NCBI GenBank assembly: GCA_036768485.1
Contig: JAVLUZ010000228.1
Location: 814,379-878,378 of the forward strand
Length of the DNA stretch: 64,000 bases
Source of the DNA: Mermis nigrescens
Lineage: Eukaryota > Nematoda > Enoplea > Mermithida > Mermithidae
Direction of reading: 5' to 3'
In this document: positions 43,653-58,536 of the stretch, piece by piece
Layout: each line of letters starts with the position of its first letter
How positions within the stretch are numbered: position 1 is the stretch's first letter
Made by a program: the position numbers and the translations under genes
The notes under the pieces: generated by a model
What the model was told of the DNA's origin: nothing
What the model saw: only the letters and a program-made list of their open reading frames with translations
Database searches by the model: none

Positions 43653-43771
43653 ACTACGCATAACTCTAAAACGTAGAGCCCCATTGAGTCGAACGAGAAG
43701 ACCAACCCGTGAATCATAAGCACAAAACGCCACACTAGAGGGACAACCCACTAAACTTTTACTTCAAAGCG
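43653..43771 (+). repeat. Polinton left terminal inverted repeat
   Basis: Pairs with 55232-55350; starts 'actacgcataactctaaaac'. Roughly nine in ten of the 119 positions agree, with no gaps. The match stops sharply at 'ttcaaagcg' on the inner side. Confidence 0.9.
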
Positions 43772-44986: not shown

Positions 44987-45583
44987 TCAATTTAGCATCT
45001 CATAATATAGCCGCATGGGTTGAATTGAAATGCTACACTGTTGACCTCTGTATGCATACAATCCTGCGTACAGTCTAGCGTAAGCAAACTTATTTTTTGC
45101 ACAACGTTTAGAATAAAAATGCGACTTTAGCCTATGATATGCGCGTATTTTGAATGCATCAGTCGAACACATTATGCGTTTTTGGAAGCGTTTCAGTTGC
45201 GCTTCGTTTCTGGCGCCAGTTATAATAATTTTTCTCATTGTAAATATAAGGGCAGATGGCGGACCATCTGGAAATCGTAGTTTTAAACCAGGGAATAATT
45301 CTTGCTCGTATTCAACAAATTTTTTGTATGTTTGTGCTAAAGCTCGTAAATTTATATTTGCGCCTAAATTTCCTGATCCGACTATATTGTGAATTTTATG
45401 TTCAGTTAGTTTTAGCTCGTATTCACTTTTCTCGAACATTTTGCAAATTTTTTCGTTCGCAATTTTGTTTTGTTCAACGCCTTTAGCACCAATGCAAACT
45501 AGTTTGCCGCTACTAAACAACAGGCCTGTACATTTTGGCTCTGTTATTCGAATTACTGCAGCGTTAAACTTTTTTATGATCAA
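44987..45583 (-). CDS. TATA-binding protein (TBP) homologue encoded by the Polinton
   Basis: 198 codons without a stop. Residues 6-137 follow the TBP core. The first repeat has 'FNAAVIRITEPKCTGLLFSS' and 'GKLVCIGAK'. The link is 'KIHNIVGSGNLG'. The second repeat has 'YEQELFPGLKLRF', 'ALIF' at 111-114 and 'IITGAR'. In TBP these strands form the saddle that binds and bends TATA DNA; the aromatic residues of the LLF, LFPGL and LIF motifs, which include the DNA-kinking positions, are present. The first strands of the core, about 40 residues, are missing, and the frame has no upstream ATG (a TTG opens it after a stop). A basic 60-residue tail follows the core. It begins 11 nt after the minor capsid gene on the same strand. 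A host TBP retrocopy inserted by chance is the alternative; the position argues against it. Confidence 0.8.
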   Translation of the reverse strand: MIIKKFNAAVIRITEPKCTGLLFSSGKLVCIGAKGVEQNKIANEKICKMFEKSEYELKLTEHKIHNIVGSGNLGANINLRALAQTYKKFVEYEQELFPGLKLRFPDGPPSALIFTMRKIIITGARNEAQLKRFQKRIMCSTDAFKIRAYHRLKSHFYSKRCAKNKFAYARLYAGLYAYRGQQCSISIQPMRLYYEMLN

Positions 45584-45594
45584 ATTCTACACCC

Positions 45595-46253
45595 TCACAC
45601 GTCTTTTATATTTATTTCTATGCTAGAAATATCTTTTACGAGGACGGGTATGTAGTGGGCAAAATCATAGATTCTGTCAATGATGTTGGGGTATGTTCCT
45701 TCCACGTTTATGATGCGCAAAAGAGGGGCTGAAACGTCTCCTACGATCTGGGGTTCTAAAATGTTGGCATAGACGTACATGGTTTCAAGACCACCCCCAC
45801 CAAGTCCGGCTCCCTATCCGACCATCCTGTATCTTTTAGTACTCTTTCTTTGAATCATAAAATATGTGCTATTCTTTCGGACAGTTTCACTAATTCCACA
45901 AAGGATTTAAGCATCATTACAGAAATGCGTTTTATTGAAGTGTAATAATTGAATTCTACTCCTTCTACTTTTTCTACACAAAATTTCATAGCCTCTATAA
46001 ATTCCTGGATGGAGTCGCAGCATCCTTCCTGTATTTGAAGTTTAAATTCAATACCATGTGCATCTATAATTTTTATTTCCGTTTCGTGTTTTCTTATTGT
46101 TTGCCAATTATTGGGGTAAATGAATTCCGAGAGACCACACTCCCAATCATCGATTAATTTTAATTTTTGCGGAAAATGCACAATAAACTTCGAAAGCGTA
46201 TTTTGCCTATCGCTTATCGTATTGCTAGGCAAAGTTATGTAAAATTGATCCAT
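45595..46253 (-). pseudogene. Polinton minor capsid (penton-like) protein
   Basis: Starts MDQFYITLPSNTISDRQNTL, then 'VHFPQKLKLIDDWECGLSEF', the characteristic N-terminus of the jelly-roll minor capsid protein of Polintons. It is broken by a stop at 45855 after 'SERIAHIL'. The C-terminal half resumes with 'YVYANILEPQIVGDVSAPLL' and 'PVLVKDISSIEINIKDV', ending at 45595. In the virion-like particle predicted for Polintons this protein would sit at capsid vertices. Two parts with one stop and an intervening stretch of shifted frame; not functional as it stands. The role is inferred from the family, not shown here. Confidence 0.65.
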
Positions 46254-46745
46254 TTTTCACAAATTTGGTTTATGATAAAATCTTCTTCTATGACTGAGGT
46301 GTTTATCTTAAATAGACTATTTACAGAACCCGTTACAAATTTGTATGCGTAACTTTTTTCTAAACTTTTTAGGATTAGTTTCATGGGTACCCCTCTGTAC
46401 CTCCAAATTAAAAAGTAAACACACATTCGGCCGCACATAGACGTTAGTGGCTACTGCACGCATTTTTTATTATGTTTAATTTTTGTAGCATACTGTAGAA
46501 TATAATTTTGTGTTTGGTTATCAGGCGCTAAGCCGTAGCTGTTGAAATAGTCGCATGAGTCATGCGCGTCAAAATACATGCACGTCCAATGCGAATCAGG
46601 TTGAGTACTAGAGTCCATATTCATTACCAATGCAGCAGGCTTGCTAAAAATGGGTGGTAATTTATCGCTCCGGAAAACACCAAGAAAATTTTGATCGACC
46701 GCTTGGTCGCTTTTTAAAAAGGTTTGAGAGTTGAAAGGTATTCAT
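46235..46745 (-). pseudogene. Polinton adenovirus-type cysteine protease (PRO)
   Basis: The frame contains 'FLGVFRSDKLPPIFSKPAAL', then 'SHWTCMYFDAHDS' with the likely catalytic His, 'DYFNSYGLAP', and, after an in-frame TAG, 'MCGRMCVYFLIWRYRG' with the likely catalytic Cys. This His-acidic-Cys order is that of the adenovirus maturation protease, which would process capsid proteins. The start (ATG near 46745) is out of frame with the body across a t/a-run. It overlaps the start of the minor capsid gene by about 20 bp. One nonsense codon and one frameshift are seen. Confidence 0.7.
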
Positions 46746-46767: not shown

Positions 46768-47045
46768 TTACGTTTCTGACTTATCTAACATTACTGAATT
46801 ATCAAACTCGGCATAAAAAATCACTTCGAGGCCCGTATCGGGAATTTTTCCGGAAAATGATGTCCGCCGTCATCTTTTTCTGGAGTGAAATCAAATGCAA
46901 ACAGACACTGACCGTTTTTTAACCCTTCTCTTATCACCCGTTCCCTTTATTGTCCCGACAAATATCAAGTGTTTCAAATAATTGATCAGAAGCTCTAAGG
47001 TACTTGTTATTTTTAAAGTCTAGCCTGAATGGGTCCTTTTTCTTT
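46768..47045 (-). pseudogene. Polinton major capsid protein, C-terminal fragment
   Basis: Frames in succession give 'KYLRASDQLFETLDICRDNK', 'NGQCLFAFDFTPEKDD' and 'TGLEVIFYAEFDNSVMLDKS' before a stop at 46768. The FAFD-TP and YAEFDN words are typical of the last barrel of the double jelly-roll major capsid protein of Polintons. Only about 90 residues remain out of a protein normally several hundred long. The upstream side joins directly to a different gene (47050 onward), so an internal deletion of over 1 kb is likely. At least two frameshifts are seen. Confidence 0.6.
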
Positions 47046-47328
47046 TTTACTGATATTTTTGAGGCAGATGGGTTGCGCAGCTGTGTCTTAAATTTACTCA
47101 ATTTTTTAACTCGGGCGGTTTTAAAGGGTCATTACCATTTAATACGTTGAGTATGCATTCGCATAAGCATAAAATTAGGTCGTTTTCGGCATCTTCTAAT
47201 ATTGCCTTACTTTGCTTAGGTTTTGCCTTTGACAACACATCAATGTAAATAACGTGTTTTTGTAAACGTTCTGGAGCCATTTTCGGTAAAGCACGAAGAA
47301 GTTCTTTTATACTTTTTGGTGTAAACAA
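47046..47328 (-). pseudogene. Conserved basic Polinton protein (function unknown)
   Basis: 'PERLQKHVIYIDVLSKAKPK' and 'LCLCECILNVLNGNDPLKPP', then, after a frameshift at 47100, a Lys-rich stretch 'LSKFKTQLRNPSASKISVKK'. This combination of a 'lskakpk' helix, a 'clceCilnvLnG' segment and a basic tail is one I recognise as a recurring companion gene in animal Polintons. I do not know its role; a DNA-packing or core function is only a guess. It overlaps the ATPase end and is cut off by the deletion at about 47045. Confidence 0.5.
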
Positions 47329-47917
47329 CAGGATTTGTCGAAAGAATTTTAATGCGGAGACGTAAATTTTTAGGTGTAGATTGTGTCAAGTCGACCAAAA
47401 AGGAAAGAAAACGCTCCTTTTGTAGCATCATTAAAGGCTTCCAGAAAAAACTTGGGATTATGAGGGTAAAGCCGACGGGCTAACGTTTTCACCTGGAGCC
47501 GATCAGACGGATTCTTCATTAAAACTAAATATTCCGTGTTTATGCGACATGTTCTTAAACCTTTAAAAAATATGTTTTGAACGATATTTACGACAAAAAT
47601 ATCCCAATGATGACAACCGCGTGCAAATAATATATCATTTTTTGCTTCTTGCATAATATCGTATATTATAATTAATTGTGGTTCACTGCTATGCTGCCTG
47701 ACTAGACTTAAATCAGGGGTCCTTTCATAAAAATTACGCTAGTTTCCATGTCTTTATCCAAACTTTGATCTTCTGCGAAAAACCACCATATAAATTGCGG
47801 AGTTAGATGAATAAAATTATTTTCATTTTTTATAAGTTGTTGTACAAAAGTTGATTTTCCAGCCTTTGTGGGGCCAGCTACAATACAAGTAAAGTAGTGC
47901 TTAAATCGGAGATACAT
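47305..47917 (-). pseudogene. Polinton packaging ATPase (FtsK/HerA-type)
   Basis: Starts MYLRFKHYFTCIVAGPTKAG; the Walker A motif GPTKAGKST is at residues 15-23. After a frameshift near 47710, 'QLIIIYDIMQEAKNDILFAR' carries Walker B, then 'LVLMKNPSDRLQVKTLARRL' and 'EAFNDATKGAFSFLF'. After another shift, 'VDLTQSTPKNLRLRIKIL' closes the domain. The enzyme would pump the genome into the capsid. Length (about 200 residues) matches intact relatives. At least two frameshifts. Confidence 0.75.
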
Positions 47918-48094
47918 TTTGATTACGTGTATAAATTGTGCTTTTTTCGAATATATAGATGAAGCTCTCTCAGCCAGCTGCGTATGCAGCTGCCCAGCCT
48001 GCTGGACGAGGACCCAGAGCTTCAGCGCAGGCCATGTTTTTGAGTTTTTTAAAATTTTTTTTTATATATTTTTTTTCAGGCGAATGTACATTTT

Positions 48095-48241
48095 TTACAA
48101 ATTGAGGTTTTTTATATTTCTCATGATATGCTCAATTTGCGTAGCAACAGTATTTTCGGTTGACAGTGTCCAAATAACACGACGTTCTGGCCGAATATGT
48201 TGCCACATTTTGACAGAGAAAGATGTTTTGAAACTGGCCAT
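48095..48241 (-). CDS. Small hypothetical ORF, 48 codons
   Basis: MASFKTSFSVKMWQHIRPER and onward, ending 'MRNIKNLNL'. Intact, between the ATPase and promoter copy B. It may be the truncated or frame-shifted rest of the gene that starts at 48345 (whose own frame closes after 15 codons). No family recognised. A second very short Ala-rich frame (MACAEALGPRPAG) lies at about 47968-48034. Confidence 0.3.
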   Translation of the reverse strand: MASFKTSFSVKMWQHIRPERRVIWTLSTENTVATQIEHIMRNIKNLNL

Positions 48242-48342
48242 ATGCCGCTCTAAAGCAATAGCGAAATGCTAGAAACCGCGCCGTTTATTTTTTCCTGTCA
48301 ACTATCAGAACAAAAGGTAACAAATATTTGCTGACCAGAAGA

Positions 48343-48427: not shown

Positions 48428-48745
48428 CTATTCCGGCGCTATTTTTAGCAAGCTTTCTTCCCGTCGTGAAGCCATAGTTTTTCTTTCTTCCAAGTGTCTC
48501 TCAAGAACTGCAATCCCTGCCTCCAGTCTCGCCTTATTGTATTCCAAACATTTAGGGCACATTGCTATAGAAAAGAATAAATGTCCCGAATCTGTTCTGA
48601 AACAGTCTCGTTCTTTGCAAATTTTTTGGCAAAAATAACAAAGTTTGATCGTTAGTGCATAAATTGGTCGCAGCAGGTTGTGGGAGCACAGTTGAATTGG
48701 AGCTTTAATCTTCTTTGAGCGTAATTCAGGGGCAGAAGAGTCCAT
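48428..48745 (-). CDS. Polinton Cys-rich protein, 105 residues
   Basis: Starts MDSSAPELRSKKIKAPIQLC. Two Cys groups, CYFCQKIC (residues 41-48) and CPKC (63-66), could bind a zinc ion. A charged helix 'LEERKTMASRREESLL' closes the protein. The frame is intact, unlike most neighbours. Its promoter (copy A) shares a 40-bp block with that of the polymerase gene, which suggests co-regulation. Family not recognised; a DNA- or protein-binding accessory protein is an inference. Confidence 0.5.
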   Translation of the reverse strand: MDSSAPELRSKKIKAPIQLCSHNLLRPIYALTIKLCYFCQKICKERDCFRTDSGHLFFSIAMCPKCLEYNKARLEAGIAVLERHLEERKTMASRREESLLKIAPE

Positions 48746-48844: not shown

Positions 48845-48883
48845 AAAACTGGATTACTTTTATCTGAAGTTTCTTATATAGAT

Positions 48884-51017: not shown

Positions 51018-54000
51018 TTAAAAACCATATGGCACTGTTGAAAAATCGGGCTTTACAACCCGTTTATTGTAAACTATTTTGTACTTTTTAGACGCATCTT
51101 CTGTCACTATAGTATGATCAGGCAGGCGTCGAATTTGAGGAAAATATACAACTTTTTCAATGATATTGTTTTCCTGTACAAACGTTTTGACCATTTTTAG
51201 TAATGAACATAAATTGATTTTTGACGCCATAGCCGAATTCAAGGAAACTCTCACTTTTATATGATAGTAAAATTTGTTTTCCCGAGCCGAGTAGACTTTG
51301 TGAGCATAATTTTTAGGCCCTCCGCTCAGGAATGTTTCTATGCAAGTGCCAGGGCCGTAATACTTCAGTTCGTCAGTCATATTGCCCAAGTATGATCCAA
51401 TTGGCACTTCATACTAATCTTTATTCAGCGTCGATTTAAAAATCAGGCTGTCTGTATCAAAGTAAAGTACTCGGTCGTCTAATTTATCCAGATGTTCATA
51501 AAGTCTTAAGCGCGCCTGAGCTGTTGTGTAGGCGGCTATGACCGTATTTGTATTTCCCATAGCTTCAGCGAAATCATCCTCTTTTCCATGTGTAACGGCC
51601 ATCACATTTTCATTGATGGCGTTAATTGAATATATTACATTAGAAGGGTCGAAAATTAGGTCAAAATATGGGGCCGGATCAGTGAAAAATGAAACTTTGG
51701 TCATGTTGTTCCTTTGACCGAATTTGGCCCAAAAAGAATTAAGCATTAGCTTAGATAGTGCGCGCATTCCCGCATTTTTTGAGATTTCGGCTGGATCAAG
51801 TTCTATTCCCTCATGTCGTTTGTATTCCGATATATATTTTGTTTTGTCATCATCCATTTTTACCCATACAGGCCACCCGTCGGATTCTTGCTTTAATTTC
51901 ATGAAATTGTTAATGTATTTCGTAAATAGACCACCATCAGGGTTGGTAATGGGGTCGTATTTTCCGGATTTTTCATAATGACATACTTCGAAAATTTCAA
52001 TAATTTTGTAGCCCAACTCTAGTGCTTTAAACACTTCGAGCGTCACCCATGCACCCGCTATCGCTTGTTCTTCGACAGTGTGCTCACATTGATCCTGTTG
52101 ATGCGTTTCAGTGCATGTTCGGCATAAGGGGAAATATAATGTATCCCCGAATCTGTATGGCAAAACTGGGTGGTACAGGCCTTTGGGTGGTAAAATTTTG
52201 GCCTTAATTAGTCCCTCATATGATCGTTTTCAGCCAAAATTTCTAAACAGTTTTATGTCAAAATCTGAGGATGTCCAATAGGGTAAATGCCGTATTTGTT
52301 AAGTGTAGGGTACAAACTGCATATGTCCGTGTGACTAATTTTTTCCAAGGAAGCTCCATTTTGATCCTTTTTTATCTTTTCGAGCGATTTAATGGCATTT
52401 GTTCTTCCACCATAAAATGCTTCCCTGGGATCTAATGGGTCTACGATTTTGATTGAGTTGAAAAAAATTTTTATTTCAAAATTTGATCTAAGTTCTCGAT
52501 TAAGCTCGCACTCCCACATTTCAGTCACAGTGTAATCTTGTGCCTCTATCGTTTTGCGTCGCCTTATTGTGTTTTGGTATGCCTCTTCAGCCGTTGTTAT
52601 TTGGTCGGCTGTAAGCTTTGTTGGCTTTTTCATGCATTTTGGACAGCTGTGTCAAAAGCATCCATTAAACTCATGTTCGGTCTTTTCGTGTATGCCATCA
52701 ACTCGATACTTGCCTATTTTTTGCTCGCCTATATTGCGAGCATGTCTTATATTAATTTTTTGCGTTTCGCTTAACCACTTTAACCATTTGATTGCCGTGA
52801 TTGATTGTTTTTTCGCTCGTCTGTAGCCACCATGTGGTACAATGCCGATTGTATTTGCGTGCAAATAAGTTGTTCTAAAAACTTTGTTGCAAGCGCTTGC
52901 AATTGTTAAAGATGTTTCAAATAGGTCTAAGCCAGTTTCAGCCAAAGATAATTTTTGAAATTTGAGGCAGCTCCGGCGGAGTATATCAACATCCGACTCA
53001 CAGTAGGTCAAAAGTTCGGTTCTAAAATTGAACATTTTGCCTTTCTGCTCTTGATGCCAATTGTAAAAGTTTTCTCGGCTCTTAGGCTTCATTGTAGCTG
53101 GGCAGTAGTACCAGGCATCCGGCCACTAACCCTCATAATTTTCGTTTTCGGCCGTGTTGAAAAGATGCGGAAAATATCTTTTTTTCAATTCAGGTTCATC
53201 GAAAGTTTTTGGCAAAGGTGATAAAGCCATTGGCAAGAAATTGAAGGAATCGATTATTTTACAGAGCCTGCTGTTAATCTCATAATTTCAAGCCAACCGG
53301 TGACTATTGTGGGTACTATAGCTTGCTTGAAAAGATATTTTCGGATAAAATGGCCATCAAAAGCTTTTGCGTTATGTGCAATTGCTATAGCATTTTCGAG
53401 GCCAAATAAAAATCGCAAAATTCATTTTCGCAGTTTTTTCAAAAAATATTCGGCGATTTTCGCCGCGATGTTCGCAAATTCCAATTGGTAAATCCTTGCA
53501 CTTCACACATACTACGTGCGCTACGCATAAATTTGGCTCATGCTCTTATTGGAGTCCTGCCTTTGTATTGCCACAGATCTTTTCCTGGCGTGTTTTGAAA
53601 TTGGAAATCACATATTTTATGTTTTTCTTTTCATCCTTTTATATTTCTATCGGTTTCATGTAACATTTATGATCAACCGTAGGCACATCAGATTTACACG
53701 TTTTCCAATAAAAGTGGCCACATTTATGCTTCCTTATTTTATCGGCTCTATTTACATGCCGACCACAATTTTTACAGAGCATCTTTTGTTGACAAATCGA
53801 CTTTTCGTTTTCCGACTTTTTTATGATTTTCGAAGCAGCTTTGCCCCCTGAATAGACGATTACAGTCTGTACATTCTGTGAGAGCTACGCTTGGGCATGC
53901 AGGACCTTTACAACAAGGACATACTTTAGAGCACCGGTGATCGATCTTATCATTATAACCTTTGTTACAAGCTTCACAAATATATCCACGATTCATAAAG

Positions 54001-54703
54001 CCTGCCATACTACCAATTACGTCTAAATGATTATTGGTATGATACAAATGTACATTTTTTCTGCAGGCGGCCCCTCGAAAACTATGGCGTTACAGAAATC
54101 GGCACTTAAGACTTTAATTTGAAAGCTTGGCATTGCAGTCTGCAATACCTGCAGCTCCGGTATACTGCCAGGGCCTACATGGTCTCAAAGGCCTGCGAGA
54201 TCCATTAACTTCTTTGCACTATTTCGCTGCATCATGTACCAATATGCGTCACCCATGCACATAGGTTTATATTTAGATTTAAGAGTTTTATCGTTGGGTT
54301 TTTCCATGTGCAGCACACGCGCTTTTGCTACTGCTAGAGCCCTGGGCAAACATAAATTATCATTGTTCTTAATTTTTATGAAACATTATTTTGCCTTCAT
54401 TCCTTTTTCAAAGTTTATAAATCTGCGCTTATGCTGACCTGAACCGTTTGATGGGCTAGACTGCACTATTTTTATCCGCGTTTCCGGCTGCTTGAGCTGC
54501 ACTTCCTCGTTCGTCTGCAAAATTCGCCCAATCGTAGGTACAATTTGTTCACCTTTTATTTGTTCGCCTTTTTGGAATGGAACAATCGCCGGCTTTTTTA
54601 GTGTAGGATGCGTAATTTGTAGGCCCACCATGTCCATTGCACTAGAACAGTCCAAAATCTGTGTGATAGCACTGTCGAAAATTTCAGCCGAATTCTTCTC
54701 CAA
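51018..54703 (-). pseudogene. Polinton protein-primed DNA polymerase B
   Basis: In order along the minus strand: N-terminal part 'VGLQITHPTLKKPAIVPFQK' (54650); 'NNDNLCLPRALAVAKARV'; a Cys-rich block 'YICEACNKGYNDKIDHRC' (53980); Exo II 'AIAHNAKAFDGHFIRKYL' (53380); Exo III 'YCESDVDILRR' (53005); 'EAFYGGRTNA' (52420); palm motif A 'DICSLYP' (52327); motif B 'KLMLNSFWAKFGQR' (51730); motif C 'YFDTDS' (51455); and the C-terminal 'ETFLSGGPKNYAHKVYSA'. Total about 1200 codons, the usual size. It would replicate the element from a terminal protein primer. In-frame stops include those at 51414, near 53130, near 54195 and 54386, with several frameshifts. All catalytic motifs listed survive. Confidence 0.88.
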
Positions 54704-54721
54704 ATCGAGACGATCCTAATT

Positions 54722-54943
54722 TTAAAAATTCAGCATATAGGCACGTCCTTCCGTGTTGAATCGTTTTATCCTCTGCGTTTCCGGCTCCCTCAACTCGTAA
54801 AATTCCTCTGGCGGGTACCACTCGTCCACCACTTCGATGACTTCCACCATCATTTCTTCATCCGTTCTGTACCACGCGTCTTGTGTTTGCAAATCATCAA
54901 CCATTTCGATGTCGGAATCCATAGTAGCAAGAAGAAGAGTCAC
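54722..54943 (-). CDS. Small acidic ORF just upstream of, and in frame with, the polymerase
   Basis: Acidic frame (MDSDIEMVDDLQTQDAWYRT from its second Met at 54922) separated from the polymerase N-terminal frame by two in-frame stops (54722 and 54716). It is therefore either the polymerase's own N-terminus cut off by mutations or a short separate protein. The ATG at 54922 lies about 70 nt below the TATA box. No family recognised. Confidence 0.4.
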   Translation of the reverse strand: MTLLLATMDSDIEMVDDLQTQDAWYRTDEEMMVEVIEVVDEWYPPEEFYELREPETQRIKRFNTEGRAYMLNF

Positions 54944-54987: not shown

Positions 54988-55028
54988 CCTTTTATACATT
55001 CTGAGAAATGACTATTCTTTGAATCAGA
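54988..55028 (-). promoter_or_regulatory. Polinton polymerase promoter with TATA box
   Basis: Minus strand: 'tctgattcaaagaatag', 'tcatttctcagaatg', TATAAAAGG (54996-54988). Nearly the same 40-bp block stands before the Cys-rich gene at 48745, 6.2 kb away. Confidence 0.65.
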
Positions 55029-55231: not shown

Positions 55232-55350
55232 CGCTTTGAAGTAAAAGTTTAGTGGGTTGTGCCTATAGTGTGGCGTTTTGTGCTTATGTTTCACGGGTTA
55301 GCCTTCTCATTCGACTCTATGGGGCTATATGTTTTAGGGTTATGCGTAGT
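55232..55350 (-). repeat. Polinton right terminal inverted repeat
   Basis: Reverse complement of 43653-43771. The outer edge is 'gcgtagt' at 55350. Coding-like gag sequence begins directly outside it. Confidence 0.9.
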
Positions 55351-55352
55351 TA

Positions 55353-57386
55353 CGTCAAATAACCAGGAACCTGGTTCTGAGCCGCATAAATTAGCCTCCG
55401 ATGAAGAGTGCAATAATGGCTTAACCATAAAGACCGAAAATAATTGTGCCGAGCTCATTGTTACTAATCAACTTATATTCAAGACTCTGCAATGTATACA
55501 TATGCAGTTTTCGAACATTTCTTCACGTGTAAATCAAGATAAAGAGGAAAATTCGGAAGAAATGCGTAAACTTCGAGCGGAATTAAGTAATCTACTTAAG
55601 CCGCAAATAGTTTCTAAATGCATTAAAATAATCCATCTCAGAATTTGGATTATGCAGAACATTTACCTACAATTTTGCAGAAGTCGTTATCTCGGCCATT
55701 GCTTTTGTTAAATCGAAATGCGCCTTCATTTGTGCCTAATTCATTAAATTCGACTTCGCAGCCGAGCTTAAACCTCCTCCGCTGCAACATTTTCCTTCAA
55801 ACGTTGAATTACCGCCAAATAATTTTGTTTCGAATCCTTTGAATATCGAAATTCCGCAAAATACTTCTATTTTGCATTCTTCAAATATGTAAATTCGGCC
55901 ACAAGAACTTAACTTGTCTGGCGAAAATATCGAACCTAACAATCAGCAAAATTCATCTATGCAATTACCCGAGTCATCCGCAAGGAGACATCGTGTAAAA
56001 TTTTCTGATGAAAGTTTGAGTAGTTATGATCGCCCACGTCGCCATCATTCATGCAGTAGACATAGTCCACAACGTCATCGCCATCAGCCACCGTCACGAT
56101 TCGGATTCCTCATCCAGTTCTTCACATAGCAAGTCACACTTTGCTGATACTCTAAATTGTGGACCTTTCATGCAACAGATGCAAATTGCTATCGCAAATA
56201 AAAAATTTTTTAATGCGGATAAATCAGATATACGAGCATTTTTTGCAGAGTTTGAATTGCTTGCTGACACTTATGATATCAATAAATCGGTTTGTGTCAA
56301 ATTCATGTCATCATTTTTAGACCCCTACGCTTCGCGTCTATTCCATTCGTTATCTGCTGAGATAAGACAATCTTATACAAAATCGAAATATGCGTCAATA
56401 GCGGAATTTTGTCCTTTGGACACCAAAACGCTTTTTGATTGTTTTTTAGAATGTAAACCGCAGTCTAACGAATCGGTTAAAGCATTTTATCTTGCGATTC
56501 GTGAACAATTAATAAAAGCGTAACCGCATCTTGAAATCGACTATGATCATTTCAATCATTTGCTTCGTCATCAATTGAAAAAAGGCCTATTACCTGAAAT
56601 ATCAAAAAGAAGCGTATCATCGTGCGCCAAAAGCATCACTGGCTGAATTCTTAGATAACGCTTTAAACGCTGAGTTTGCGAATAACGTATATACGAATAA
56701 AAAAGCGTTAACGCCCTATGTATCGGTAGCAGCCGCCCCTACAGGAGGCGCAATACCCAAAGATACATTTTGTGCGTCTAACCAAACTGAGCCCAATCTG
56801 CTCGTTTCAGAATACATTTTATTGTTTGTCGCGCGTTGAGAAACAACAAAATTCTTCTCGTAAATATTGCACCTTTTGCAAATGCACAGGTCATGTCTAC
56901 AAAGAATGTTTCACGCGTCAGCGACAACAAACATCTAATAATAATTATTATTCTGACCGTAACAGAAACAATTCTATGGCTCACAATCGCAGCCAGTTGC
57001 CTTCTTTTAAGCAGCGACATCATTCGCCATTGCGTTCAAATTCGCAAAATCGAAATTATTCTCAATCTCGATTTCGTAACCCTAGTCAAAATCGCTCACC
57101 GAATTATGCAAATAATGATAATCGCTTTGATTCGAGGCAAGCACAATCGAATTTTTGGCAAAATCATAACGATTACCAACAAAATTCGCGTGCCAATTAT
57201 CAAAATTTGTGTTTCGATAAACGTTTTTCGCACCAGTTGCGACAAAACGAGCCTTATTTCCAGTTTCCTATCGAACAACGCTCCACAAATTATAATTCGA
57301 ATTATCGTACTGATAATGTTGCTGATCGCCCATATGTTCCATATGCCGACATAGAGCGGATCCATTGTATTTATATAATCTCTTAA
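55353..57386 (+). pseudogene. Retrotransposon gag polyprotein, decayed
   Basis: Pieces in order: a charged coiled-coil-like segment 'QDKEENSEEMRKLRAELSNL' (55530); a Ser/His/Arg-rich segment (55960-56130); a capsid-like domain 'DIRAFFAEFELLADTYDINK' to 'SVKAFYLAIREQLIKA' (56200-56520) with the pattern of Ty3/BEL-type gag; and a CCHC zinc knuckle C-x2-C-x4-H-x4-C ('YCTFCKCTGHVYKEC', about 56865) followed by an Asn/Gln/Arg-rich tail ending at 57386. At least four frame breaks. No protease, reverse transcriptase, integrase or LTR was found downstream, so this is a gag-only relic. It starts exactly at the Polinton's right end, so the Polinton may have jumped into it, although no gag piece is seen at the left flank. 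Confidence 0.65.
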
Positions 57387-57753: not shown

Positions 57754-58536
57754 TACTAGCAAAGAAAAATGCTCCGATGGAACAAAAAAGATGAATATAC
57801 TTGGAATTGTGGATTATTAAGGATGTAAAAGGAGGGGACTAGGAAAAAGCTACCTAAAGACGCAAAATCTGATAAAAATCACACTTTCTCTGAGCAACGC
57901 TAAAAATTGAAGTATATTCTGCGGCCTCTAAAAAAGTGTCTTTTTTACATAATTTTCAAAGTTTCAGATAATGTTTATTTTTTTAAATTGCTGGCGAGTA
58001 GCAACGCTGACTAACTCCGTATCCTGATTGATAGAAAACTAAGTGGTATTGTATTTGAAGTTTTTTTATTTTGTTATAAGCATTATAGCAAGCAAAGCAG
58101 TTGCCAATTTATTAGTGCACACAACCGTTACGGGAATGCTAGTGTACCTAGATTTAGTCTGTTTCAAGTCAACTTACGCGTTTCCTACTGTTTTAAACCA
58201 ACAATTTCTTCGAATGTCTTGGATGCATAAATGTTTGCTATTTCATTCAATTGTTTAAGAAAGACTGTCATTTCACTCAACATCATTTCCCATAGCTACT
58301 GCATAGCTGACGTGCTGCTTTATCAATCATTTTTATGGTTAAATATTTATTTTGATCTGTTGGCGGCAGAATACACTTCGATTTTAGGCGTTGCCGAGAG
58401 AAAGTGTGATTTTTATCAGATTTTGCGAATTCAGGTGGCTTTTTTCTAGTCCCCTCCTTTTACATCCTTAATTATCCACAATTCCAAGTATATTCATCTT
58501 TTTTGTTCCATCGGAGCATTTTTCTTTGCTAGTACC
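57754..58536. mobile_element. M1 long-TIR element, copy 4
   Basis: Left arm 57754-57945 begins 'actagcaaagaaaaatgctc'. Right arm 58365-58536 ends 'ttttctttgctagtacc'. The interior is closely similar to the copy at 9640-10330. The stretch 57387-57753 holds nothing recognised. Confidence 0.75.

Follow-up and report, generated by a model that had tools for sequence, protein, structure and literature searches.

A TATA-binding protein gene in the Polintons of the mermithid nematode Mermis nigrescens

Polintons, or Mavericks, of the animal, adintovirus-like kind carry an rve integrase with a chromodomain, a PolB, a C5-type protease and inverted repeats, and all of these are shared by the Mermis nigrescens elements described here. 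Candidates for the Polinton ATPase and DJR-like major capsid protein are present too, with Pfam matches below the cut-offs. The Mermis elements differ from known Polintons in having a selected gene for a TATA-binding protein (TBP) and positioned TATA boxes and, additionally, a ZnR gene beside the TBP in some lineages and F-box genes in some loci. No report of a Polinton TBP was found in the part of the literature that was searched, and an existing one could have been missed. PMC10675990, PMC10132985 and PMC7786948 mention both TATA-binding protein and Polinton, the terms TATA and TBP were not found in PMC11071308, and TATA, TBP and transcription were not found in PMC10120064.

The giant viruses (Mimiviridae, Phycodnaviridae and relatives) carry a TBP fold of their own, as the Mermis Polintons do. 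When the structure model of the TBP studied here was compared with viral models, 16 matched at E <= 0.001 with identities of 12-25%. Six of the 16 are named TBP or TFIID, all from giant viruses, in agreement with the preliminary description's remark that some giant DNA viruses have TBP homologues; the rest comprise models without a name, uncharacterised proteins and a B263R homologue. PMC11464507 describes a Megavirus TBP that is activated together with the viral polymerase genes, in a virus that supplies its own polymerase subunits and TFIIB. Neither polymerase subunits nor TFIIB were recognised among the Mermis element frames examined, so the host polymerase is presumably used. The mirusvirus-like contigs of Cymbomonas tetramitiformis are, according to PMC10675990, endogenous DNA elements with sporadic TBP genes; they differ in being HK97-fold capsid relatives and not Polintons. 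The cellular TBP of the host (C73:2488114-2491278) shares the fold, four phenylalanines and Glu186/188 with the element TBP, but it was matched as two separate stretches about 2.9 kb apart, has a typical animal sequence and falls inside the eukaryote TBP group.

The window, the 64,000-nucleotide stretch of contig JAVLUZ010000228.1 that was analysed, holds one dead Polinton copy of 11.7 kb. It belongs to the group of elements designated family A below, and its parts were compared mainly with L017, another family A locus. The features of the window element are as follows.

43653-43771: left terminal inverted repeat (at least its inner part), 119 nt, 92% complementary to 55232-55350
44990-45586, minus strand: TBP core, family A, recognised by Pfam TBP, similarity to L017 and fold
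45601-46256, minus strand: presumed minor capsid remnant, two pieces, 46% and 79% to L017:3361-4113, last 27 residues missing
46244-46735, minus strand: adenovirus-type cysteine protease remnant, 68% to the L017 protease (PRO)
46774-47050, minus strand: putative major capsid remnant, three pieces from the last quarter of the protein, 71-77% to the L017 major capsid protein (MCP), residues 340-445 of 453
47074-47301, minus strand: orf125 homologue, 65% to L017 orf125
47306-47311, minus strand: TATA site GTATAAAAGAA, 31 nt before the orf125 ATG at 47280
47312-47926, minus strand: putative packaging ATPase remnant, three pieces, 61-72% to the L017 ATPase (ATP)
48110-48301, minus strand: orf127 homologue, 38% to L017 orf127
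48452-48718, minus strand: ZnR, small CxxC...CxxC protein, 58% to L017 ZnR (alignment A5)
48875-48880, minus strand: TATA site TCTATATAAGAA, upstream of ZnR, as before ZnR in L017 and L044
48887-49741, minus strand: retroviral-type integrase, Pfam rve 4.9e-11, 63% to the L017 integrase (INT)
51021-53125, minus strand: PolB remnants in several frames, DNA_pol_B_2 3.3e-10 and 5.6e-6 in two pieces
54452-54922, minus strand: orf269 homologue at the element end, 83% to L013 orf269
54991-54996, minus strand: TATA site GTATAAAAGG, 74 nt before the orf269 ATG at 54922
55232-55350: right terminal inverted repeat, pairing with 43653-43771

The names orf125, orf127 and ZnR are provisional and were coined in the present analysis. 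The minor capsid frame gave no significant Pfam match, and it and its L017 counterpart are presumed to correspond to the minor capsids of Polintons. Several of the remaining assignments lean on L017, whose protease matches Peptidase_C5 above the cut-off (3.1e-7, versus 0.019 for the window piece alone) and whose integrase matches both rve (8.9e-14) and a chromodomain (6.9e-9). The L017 major capsid protein matches the DJR-like domain at 4.2e-4 with 20.1 bits, under the cut-off of 27, and its ATPase matches Pox_A32 (5.3e-4) and Adeno_IVa2 (0.0044), both under their cut-offs. The window PolB appears to be of the protein-primed type. No match to orf147 or orf235 was found in the window element at E 1e-4, and no 6-bp target duplication was found at the outer edges of the 119-nt repeats, whose ends may be eroded. 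With PolB spread over several frames and both capsid genes fragmentary, the element around the TBP is as ruined as first described.

Two structures lie outside the Polinton. Positions 57754-57926 and 58362-58534 are the two arms of an inverted repeat (173 nt, 92%), separated by 435 nt, that represents either a small mobile element or a hairpin. Just beyond the element, at 56020-57386 on the plus strand, are frames with a non-significant Retrotrans_gag match (0.13, 56020-56523), perhaps a retroelement.

The TBP frame of the window (44990-45586, minus strand) runs for 199 codons from stop to stop, with its stop codon at 44987-44989 and no start codon at its head. It matches Pfam TBP in two stretches with an E value of 3.2e-31 (107.4 bits; cut-off 22.9), and a PDB sequence search matched human TBP at 1.3e-27. 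Among the 36 PDB chains listed in that search, 35 were TBPs or TBP fusions, one of them named solely ECU04_1440, and the remaining chain was a weak, unrelated match. An AlphaFold2 model (mean pLDDT 75.4) was compared with the PDB by Foldseek, and ranks 1-44, assigned from title and chain length, were all TBP or initiation complexes that hold TBP (E 3.3e-11 to 1.0e-7; TM 0.55-0.66 over the query). The saddle fold is thus present, and the four positions that intercalate into DNA in TBP are all occupied by phenylalanine. These results bear out the identification made from the letters alone.

The window frame is nevertheless a truncated family A remnant and no working gene. It aligns to L017 TBP residues 43-184 with 62% identity, and relatives in the genome reach 86% among the matches listed. 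About 34 N-terminal residues of the L017 TBP are absent, and the first TBP repeat, complete in L017, L018, L014, L012 and L003, is shortened. At the other end, similarity to the L017 TBP stops at 45149, four residues short of the L017 stop, so the last 53 or so residues of the window frame probably lie outside the ancestral TBP; several relatives (77-86%) align into this tail, with a stop inside that region. The frame had been presented as uninterrupted, which holds in that its 199 codons contain no interior stop, but the N-terminus is gone and the tail is probably not TBP. Apart from one PolB fragment (271 aa), it is indeed the longest stop-to-stop frame of the element. Its place beside the minor capsid gene, on the same strand and inside the inverted repeats, was also correctly described, but the closeness of the two reflects a loss of about 215 nt. 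The last minor capsid residue lies 26 nt from the first TBP residue in the window and about 240 nt from it in L017, which indicates that the end of the minor capsid gene, the spacer and some 34 TBP N-terminal residues were lost.

The Mermis nigrescens assembly (523,963,438 bases, 860 contigs) was searched for further TBP genes. At least 368 TBP loci, many of them decayed, were found on 169 contigs, the host gene excluded. This number joins three search lists (Pfam TBP, D-family TBP and window TBP), merged within 1 kb per strand, each list holding the best 150 matches and that for Pfam TBP the best 150 of 2,552 first-look candidates. In the Pfam TBP list, 142 of the 150 matches had no stop inside, and two matches on C73 were the host TBP. 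Stops occur in most of the best 150 matches to the window TBP; as this query is extended at its tail, some of them may simply mark where the genes end. Thirteen further TBP loci, beyond the 368, were read directly in extracted stretches. Contamination is unlikely since copies lie on very large contigs, among them C61 (48.8 Mb), C51 (24.0 Mb) and C48 (23.3 Mb). The TBPs that were read fall into five divergent families, told apart by eye and by the tree.

Family A: window, L017, L023, L037, L039, L044
Family B: L016, L018, L019, L025-L027, L040, L041, L043
Family C: L013-L015, L021, L022, L030, L032, L038, L042
Family D: L012, L020, L024, L028, L035, L036, also L031
Family E: L003-L011, L029, L033 (L003, L004 and L007 being the same places as L009-L011)

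The L017 TBP is 34-39% identical to nine loci of families B-E, versus 59% to the window, and the complete element TBP frames that were read are little more than the two-repeat TBP core. Four public proteins on short contigs (P0019, P0020, P0086 and P0134) resemble the family D TBPs, with 45-58% identity to L036, which indicates that a D-like TBP is present in other public records. No relative was found in viral contigs with the window TBP, the TBP alignments or the MCP, a weak negative because a scan with ordinary eukaryote-type TBPs likewise came back empty.

The TBP gene occupies recurring places in the Polinton gene order. In L017 the genes are collinear on one strand in the order INT-ZnR-orf127-ATP-orf125-orf235-orf147-MCP-PRO-mCP-TBP, where mCP is the presumed minor capsid gene. 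The same order is found in L044, where the TBP reaches the end of the extracted stretch, and, with gaps, in the window element. In family B the TBP lies between the integrase and the ATPase on the opposite strand, in families C and E it adjoins ZnR, and family D has it close to an orf127-like gene, with PolB or an F-box gene also nearby at some loci. Among the 72 best-matching MCP genes (ranks 1-72), 64 have a TBP within 5 kb, in every case 1-3 kb downstream on the same strand; chance would pair 0.65 of 93. No TBP was recorded for the 21 MCP genes of ranks 73-93 among the matches listed. The genes of ranks 24 and 73 had been chosen as TBP-free controls, and both elements contained a TBP; absence from the TBP lists is therefore not true absence. 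Likewise, 105 of 150 listed integrases had no listed TBP within 10 kb, and 11 of 12 drawn at random from these have a TBP beside them nevertheless, with a broken frame in four (L046, L053, L054 and L055); no TBP was found in the stretch examined around the twelfth, L050. The idea that many Polinton lineages go without TBP was accordingly rejected, since the counts behind it, 41 and 45 out of 150 integrases, were too low. A TBP gene is a near-constant component of these Mermis nigrescens Polintons, and the proposal that a Polinton encodes its own TBP holds more widely than was claimed for the single copy: the search for TBP genes in other Polintons of this genome returned hundreds of loci, in five families, at recurring positions.

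Other genes and structures were seen at the TBP loci. F-box genes lie next to the TBP in C- and D-family loci (L014:7657-8541, L013:7724-8608 and L012:8264-9166), with Pfam F-box-like matches of 1.9e-11 in L014 and 4.9e-8 in L012; the L013 gene is 99% identical to that of L014. They may represent another gene through which these elements interact with their host. At L010:961-3995 and L009:4524-8853, ZnR and TBP stand alone between inverted repeats of 943 nt (100%) and 1552 nt (99%), respectively, as in a compact element or a palindromic end.

A TBP tree was built from 40 rows, namely the 49 of a first tree minus 17 that were long, near-duplicate or redundant, plus eight added. Families B-E together with P0019, P0020, P0086 and P0134, which were grouped with the element TBPs after their similarity was seen, form one side of a branch (97/94), and family A is set apart on a long branch of its own that adjoins the eukaryote TBPs (94/79). 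The host TBP falls within the eukaryote group (97/93), with a nematode TBP as its neighbour (83/69). On the best tree two changes are required to account for the element TBPs, and 6% of 200 bootstrap trees unite them; the test does not reject a single clade (p-AU 0.156). The tree would allow either one or two ancient captures of TBP, from some eukaryote or virus. The gene might instead be a passenger that one element picked up recently as a retrocopy of the host TBP, and what speaks for this is that family A is placed closer to the eukaryote TBPs than families B-E are. That origin is scarcely credible given the path of 2.63 changes per column between window and host TBP, the identity of 30-43% to the host exons, the placement of the host TBP among eukaryotes beside a nematode, and the hundreds of TBP loci at recurring positions with low dN/dS. 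We therefore rejected it. The outcomes named beforehand as fatal to the original claim did not occur: the TBP profile match is strong, the tree sets the element TBP apart from the host TBP, and sibling elements carry the gene.

Selection was assessed by the Nei-Gojobori method in 15 TBP pairs, which share branches and are not fully independent. In eight of the 15, dN/dS was 0.12-0.17 (dS 0.22 to 2.29). The ratio was 0.26 for L009/L029, 0.28 for window/L039 and 0.72 for L009/L010 at a dS of 0.016; of the remaining pairs, one had a dS of 0 and three were saturated. We read these ratios as purifying selection on the TBP between element lineages.

Contact residues were tabulated for 28 element rows, the window and near-copies included, in yeast TBP numbering. 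The phenylalanines that intercalate into DNA in TBP are present in 28 of 28 rows at positions 99 and 116, in 27 at position 190 (missing in L033) and in 21 at position 207, where five family E rows have Tyr and L021 and L042 of family C have Ser. Glu186 (28/28) and Glu188 (27/28), which face TFIIB, are also kept. Other positions have changed. N159 is replaced in families B and C and in L029; among 12 element loci, R141 is basic in three and K145 is kept in three; and the span from F190 to F207 is 16 residues, not 18, in eight of the 11 loci printed (families B, C and D). These changes make normal use of partners uncertain.

Promoters were examined in 22 loci with 95 gene starts, of which 70 were kept after near-identical upstream stretches were dropped; the set leaves out PolB and genes without a covered N-terminus. 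TATAWA occurs within 120 nt upstream of 55 of these 70 non-redundant genes, versus 17.6 on average and at most 27 in 200 dinucleotide shuffles, and in the first 120 coding nucleotides of seven. The complementary strand of these upstream stretches gave 34 of 70, in part because such sites can read both ways. An earlier hand-listed set of 34 genes, largely within the 70, gave 24 with a TATA box versus 8.9. The boxes are positioned, with 48 of 77 TATAWA sites lying 30-49 nt before the ATG. At 25-60 nt before the start codon, TATAWA was found in 46 of 70 element genes versus none of 28 baseline frames, which are arbitrary window frames outside the element and not host promoters, and slightly less AT-rich (0.640 vs 0.683); the Fisher value of 2.5e-10 is only a guide because the 70 genes are related by descent. 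Since both intended TBP-free controls carry TBP, the boxes are attributable to the TBP or to the Polinton group alike. Over the whole window, TCTATAWA occurs six times versus 7.4 expected, no excess over chance.

Boxes at 25-60 nt were found in six of 14 family A genes and 40 of 56 genes of families B-E. Of the 40, 34 have TATAAATA and three TATAWAAG, and five of the six family A genes have TATAWAAG; TATATAAGG precedes two D-family TBP genes (L020 and L024) as exceptions. These small numbers suggest that the TATA dialect of family A differs from that of the others. Among the 13 TBP genes examined, 10 have TATAWA upstream; it is absent in L028, in L009 and before the partial L012 gene. Of the 15 genes with no TATAWA in 120 nt, nine belong to orf235, PRO or mCP and overlap or directly adjoin the preceding gene, and besides the three TBP genes the rest are INT, MCP and orf147. 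In L017, L044 and L018, orf235, PRO and the family A mCP overlap or abut the preceding gene, mostly without a TATA box, a hint that they share transcripts with the preceding genes.

We think it probable, from the sequence comparisons above, that the TBP is encoded by the element to read its own TATA promoters and works with host TFIIB and RNA polymerase II. The gene itself, its membership of the element, purifying selection, conserved contact residues and positioned TATA boxes are the parts of this account that the sequences show. The element TBP would bind the TATA boxes found 25-60 nt ahead of many of the element's genes, the TBP gene often among them, and its conserved phenylalanines would bend the bound DNA. 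Its E-x-E-[LI]-F edge would then recruit host TFIIB and RNA polymerase II, and the element genes would thereby be served without dependence on the level of host TBP/TFIID. The host TBP could read the same element boxes. The suggestion in the preliminary description that the element could direct RNA polymerase II to its own genes thus gains independent support from the positioned TATA boxes, but its further steps (DNA binding, polymerase recruitment, timing and independence from TFIID) are ones that we infer.

More tentatively, the elements may have a semi-private promoter system, in which lineage TBPs co-evolved with TATA dialects (TATAWAAG in family A; mostly TATAAATA in families B-E), altered TFIIA/NC2 surfaces and shortened stirrups escape host repression, and ZnR is an initiation partner. 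ZnR is a conserved small CxxC...CxxC protein found beside the TBP or the integrase and a candidate transcription partner; a PDB search found no relative of it, which leaves the idea of ZnR as a partner without sequence support.

Other roles for the protein were weighed against that of a factor for the element's own promoters. The element TBP could interfere with the host by competing for TFIIB, TFIIA or promoters and so shifting the host machinery, with host TBP mainly reading the element boxes. Retention of the glutamates towards TFIIB alongside changes in several TFIIA/NC2-side residues would suit such a role, as would complete frames that hardly exceed the core. We consider it unlikely, since DNA-contacting phenylalanines kept in most rows under purifying selection, together with positioned boxes before element genes, accord better with binding to the element's own DNA than with a purely decoy role. 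A TBP that acted as an autorepressor or controlled copy number, occupying element TATA boxes without supporting initiation, would account for TATAWA upstream of most TBP genes, for the altered partner surfaces and for many copies in one genome, but it would not need the nearly invariant Glu186 and Glu188, and we regard it as quite improbable. There is little probability that the TBP bends DNA to help integration or packaging, or directs insertion to promoters at which TFIIIB or TFIID is bound. The family B gene does lie between integrase and ATPase, and the chromodomain of the integrase makes target choice through host chromatin factors plausible; the TBP is placed elsewhere in families A and C, however, and the TATA boxes would be left unexplained.

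If the element TBP does serve the element's own promoters, an animal Polinton would bring along the protein that comes first in polymerase II initiation, a trait not known to occur outside larger DNA viruses. Were the semi-private system also true, an animal genome would harbour a mobile DNA element that has its own promoter-recognition factor without a polymerase of its own. The finding bears on whether Polintons are viruses with a programmed cycle of gene expression and on the source of viral TBPs, and hundreds of extra TBP loci raise the question of how the host tolerates them. The Mermis nigrescens elements offer a natural set of divergent TBPs and TATA boxes in one nucleus, a model for how a general factor becomes specific.
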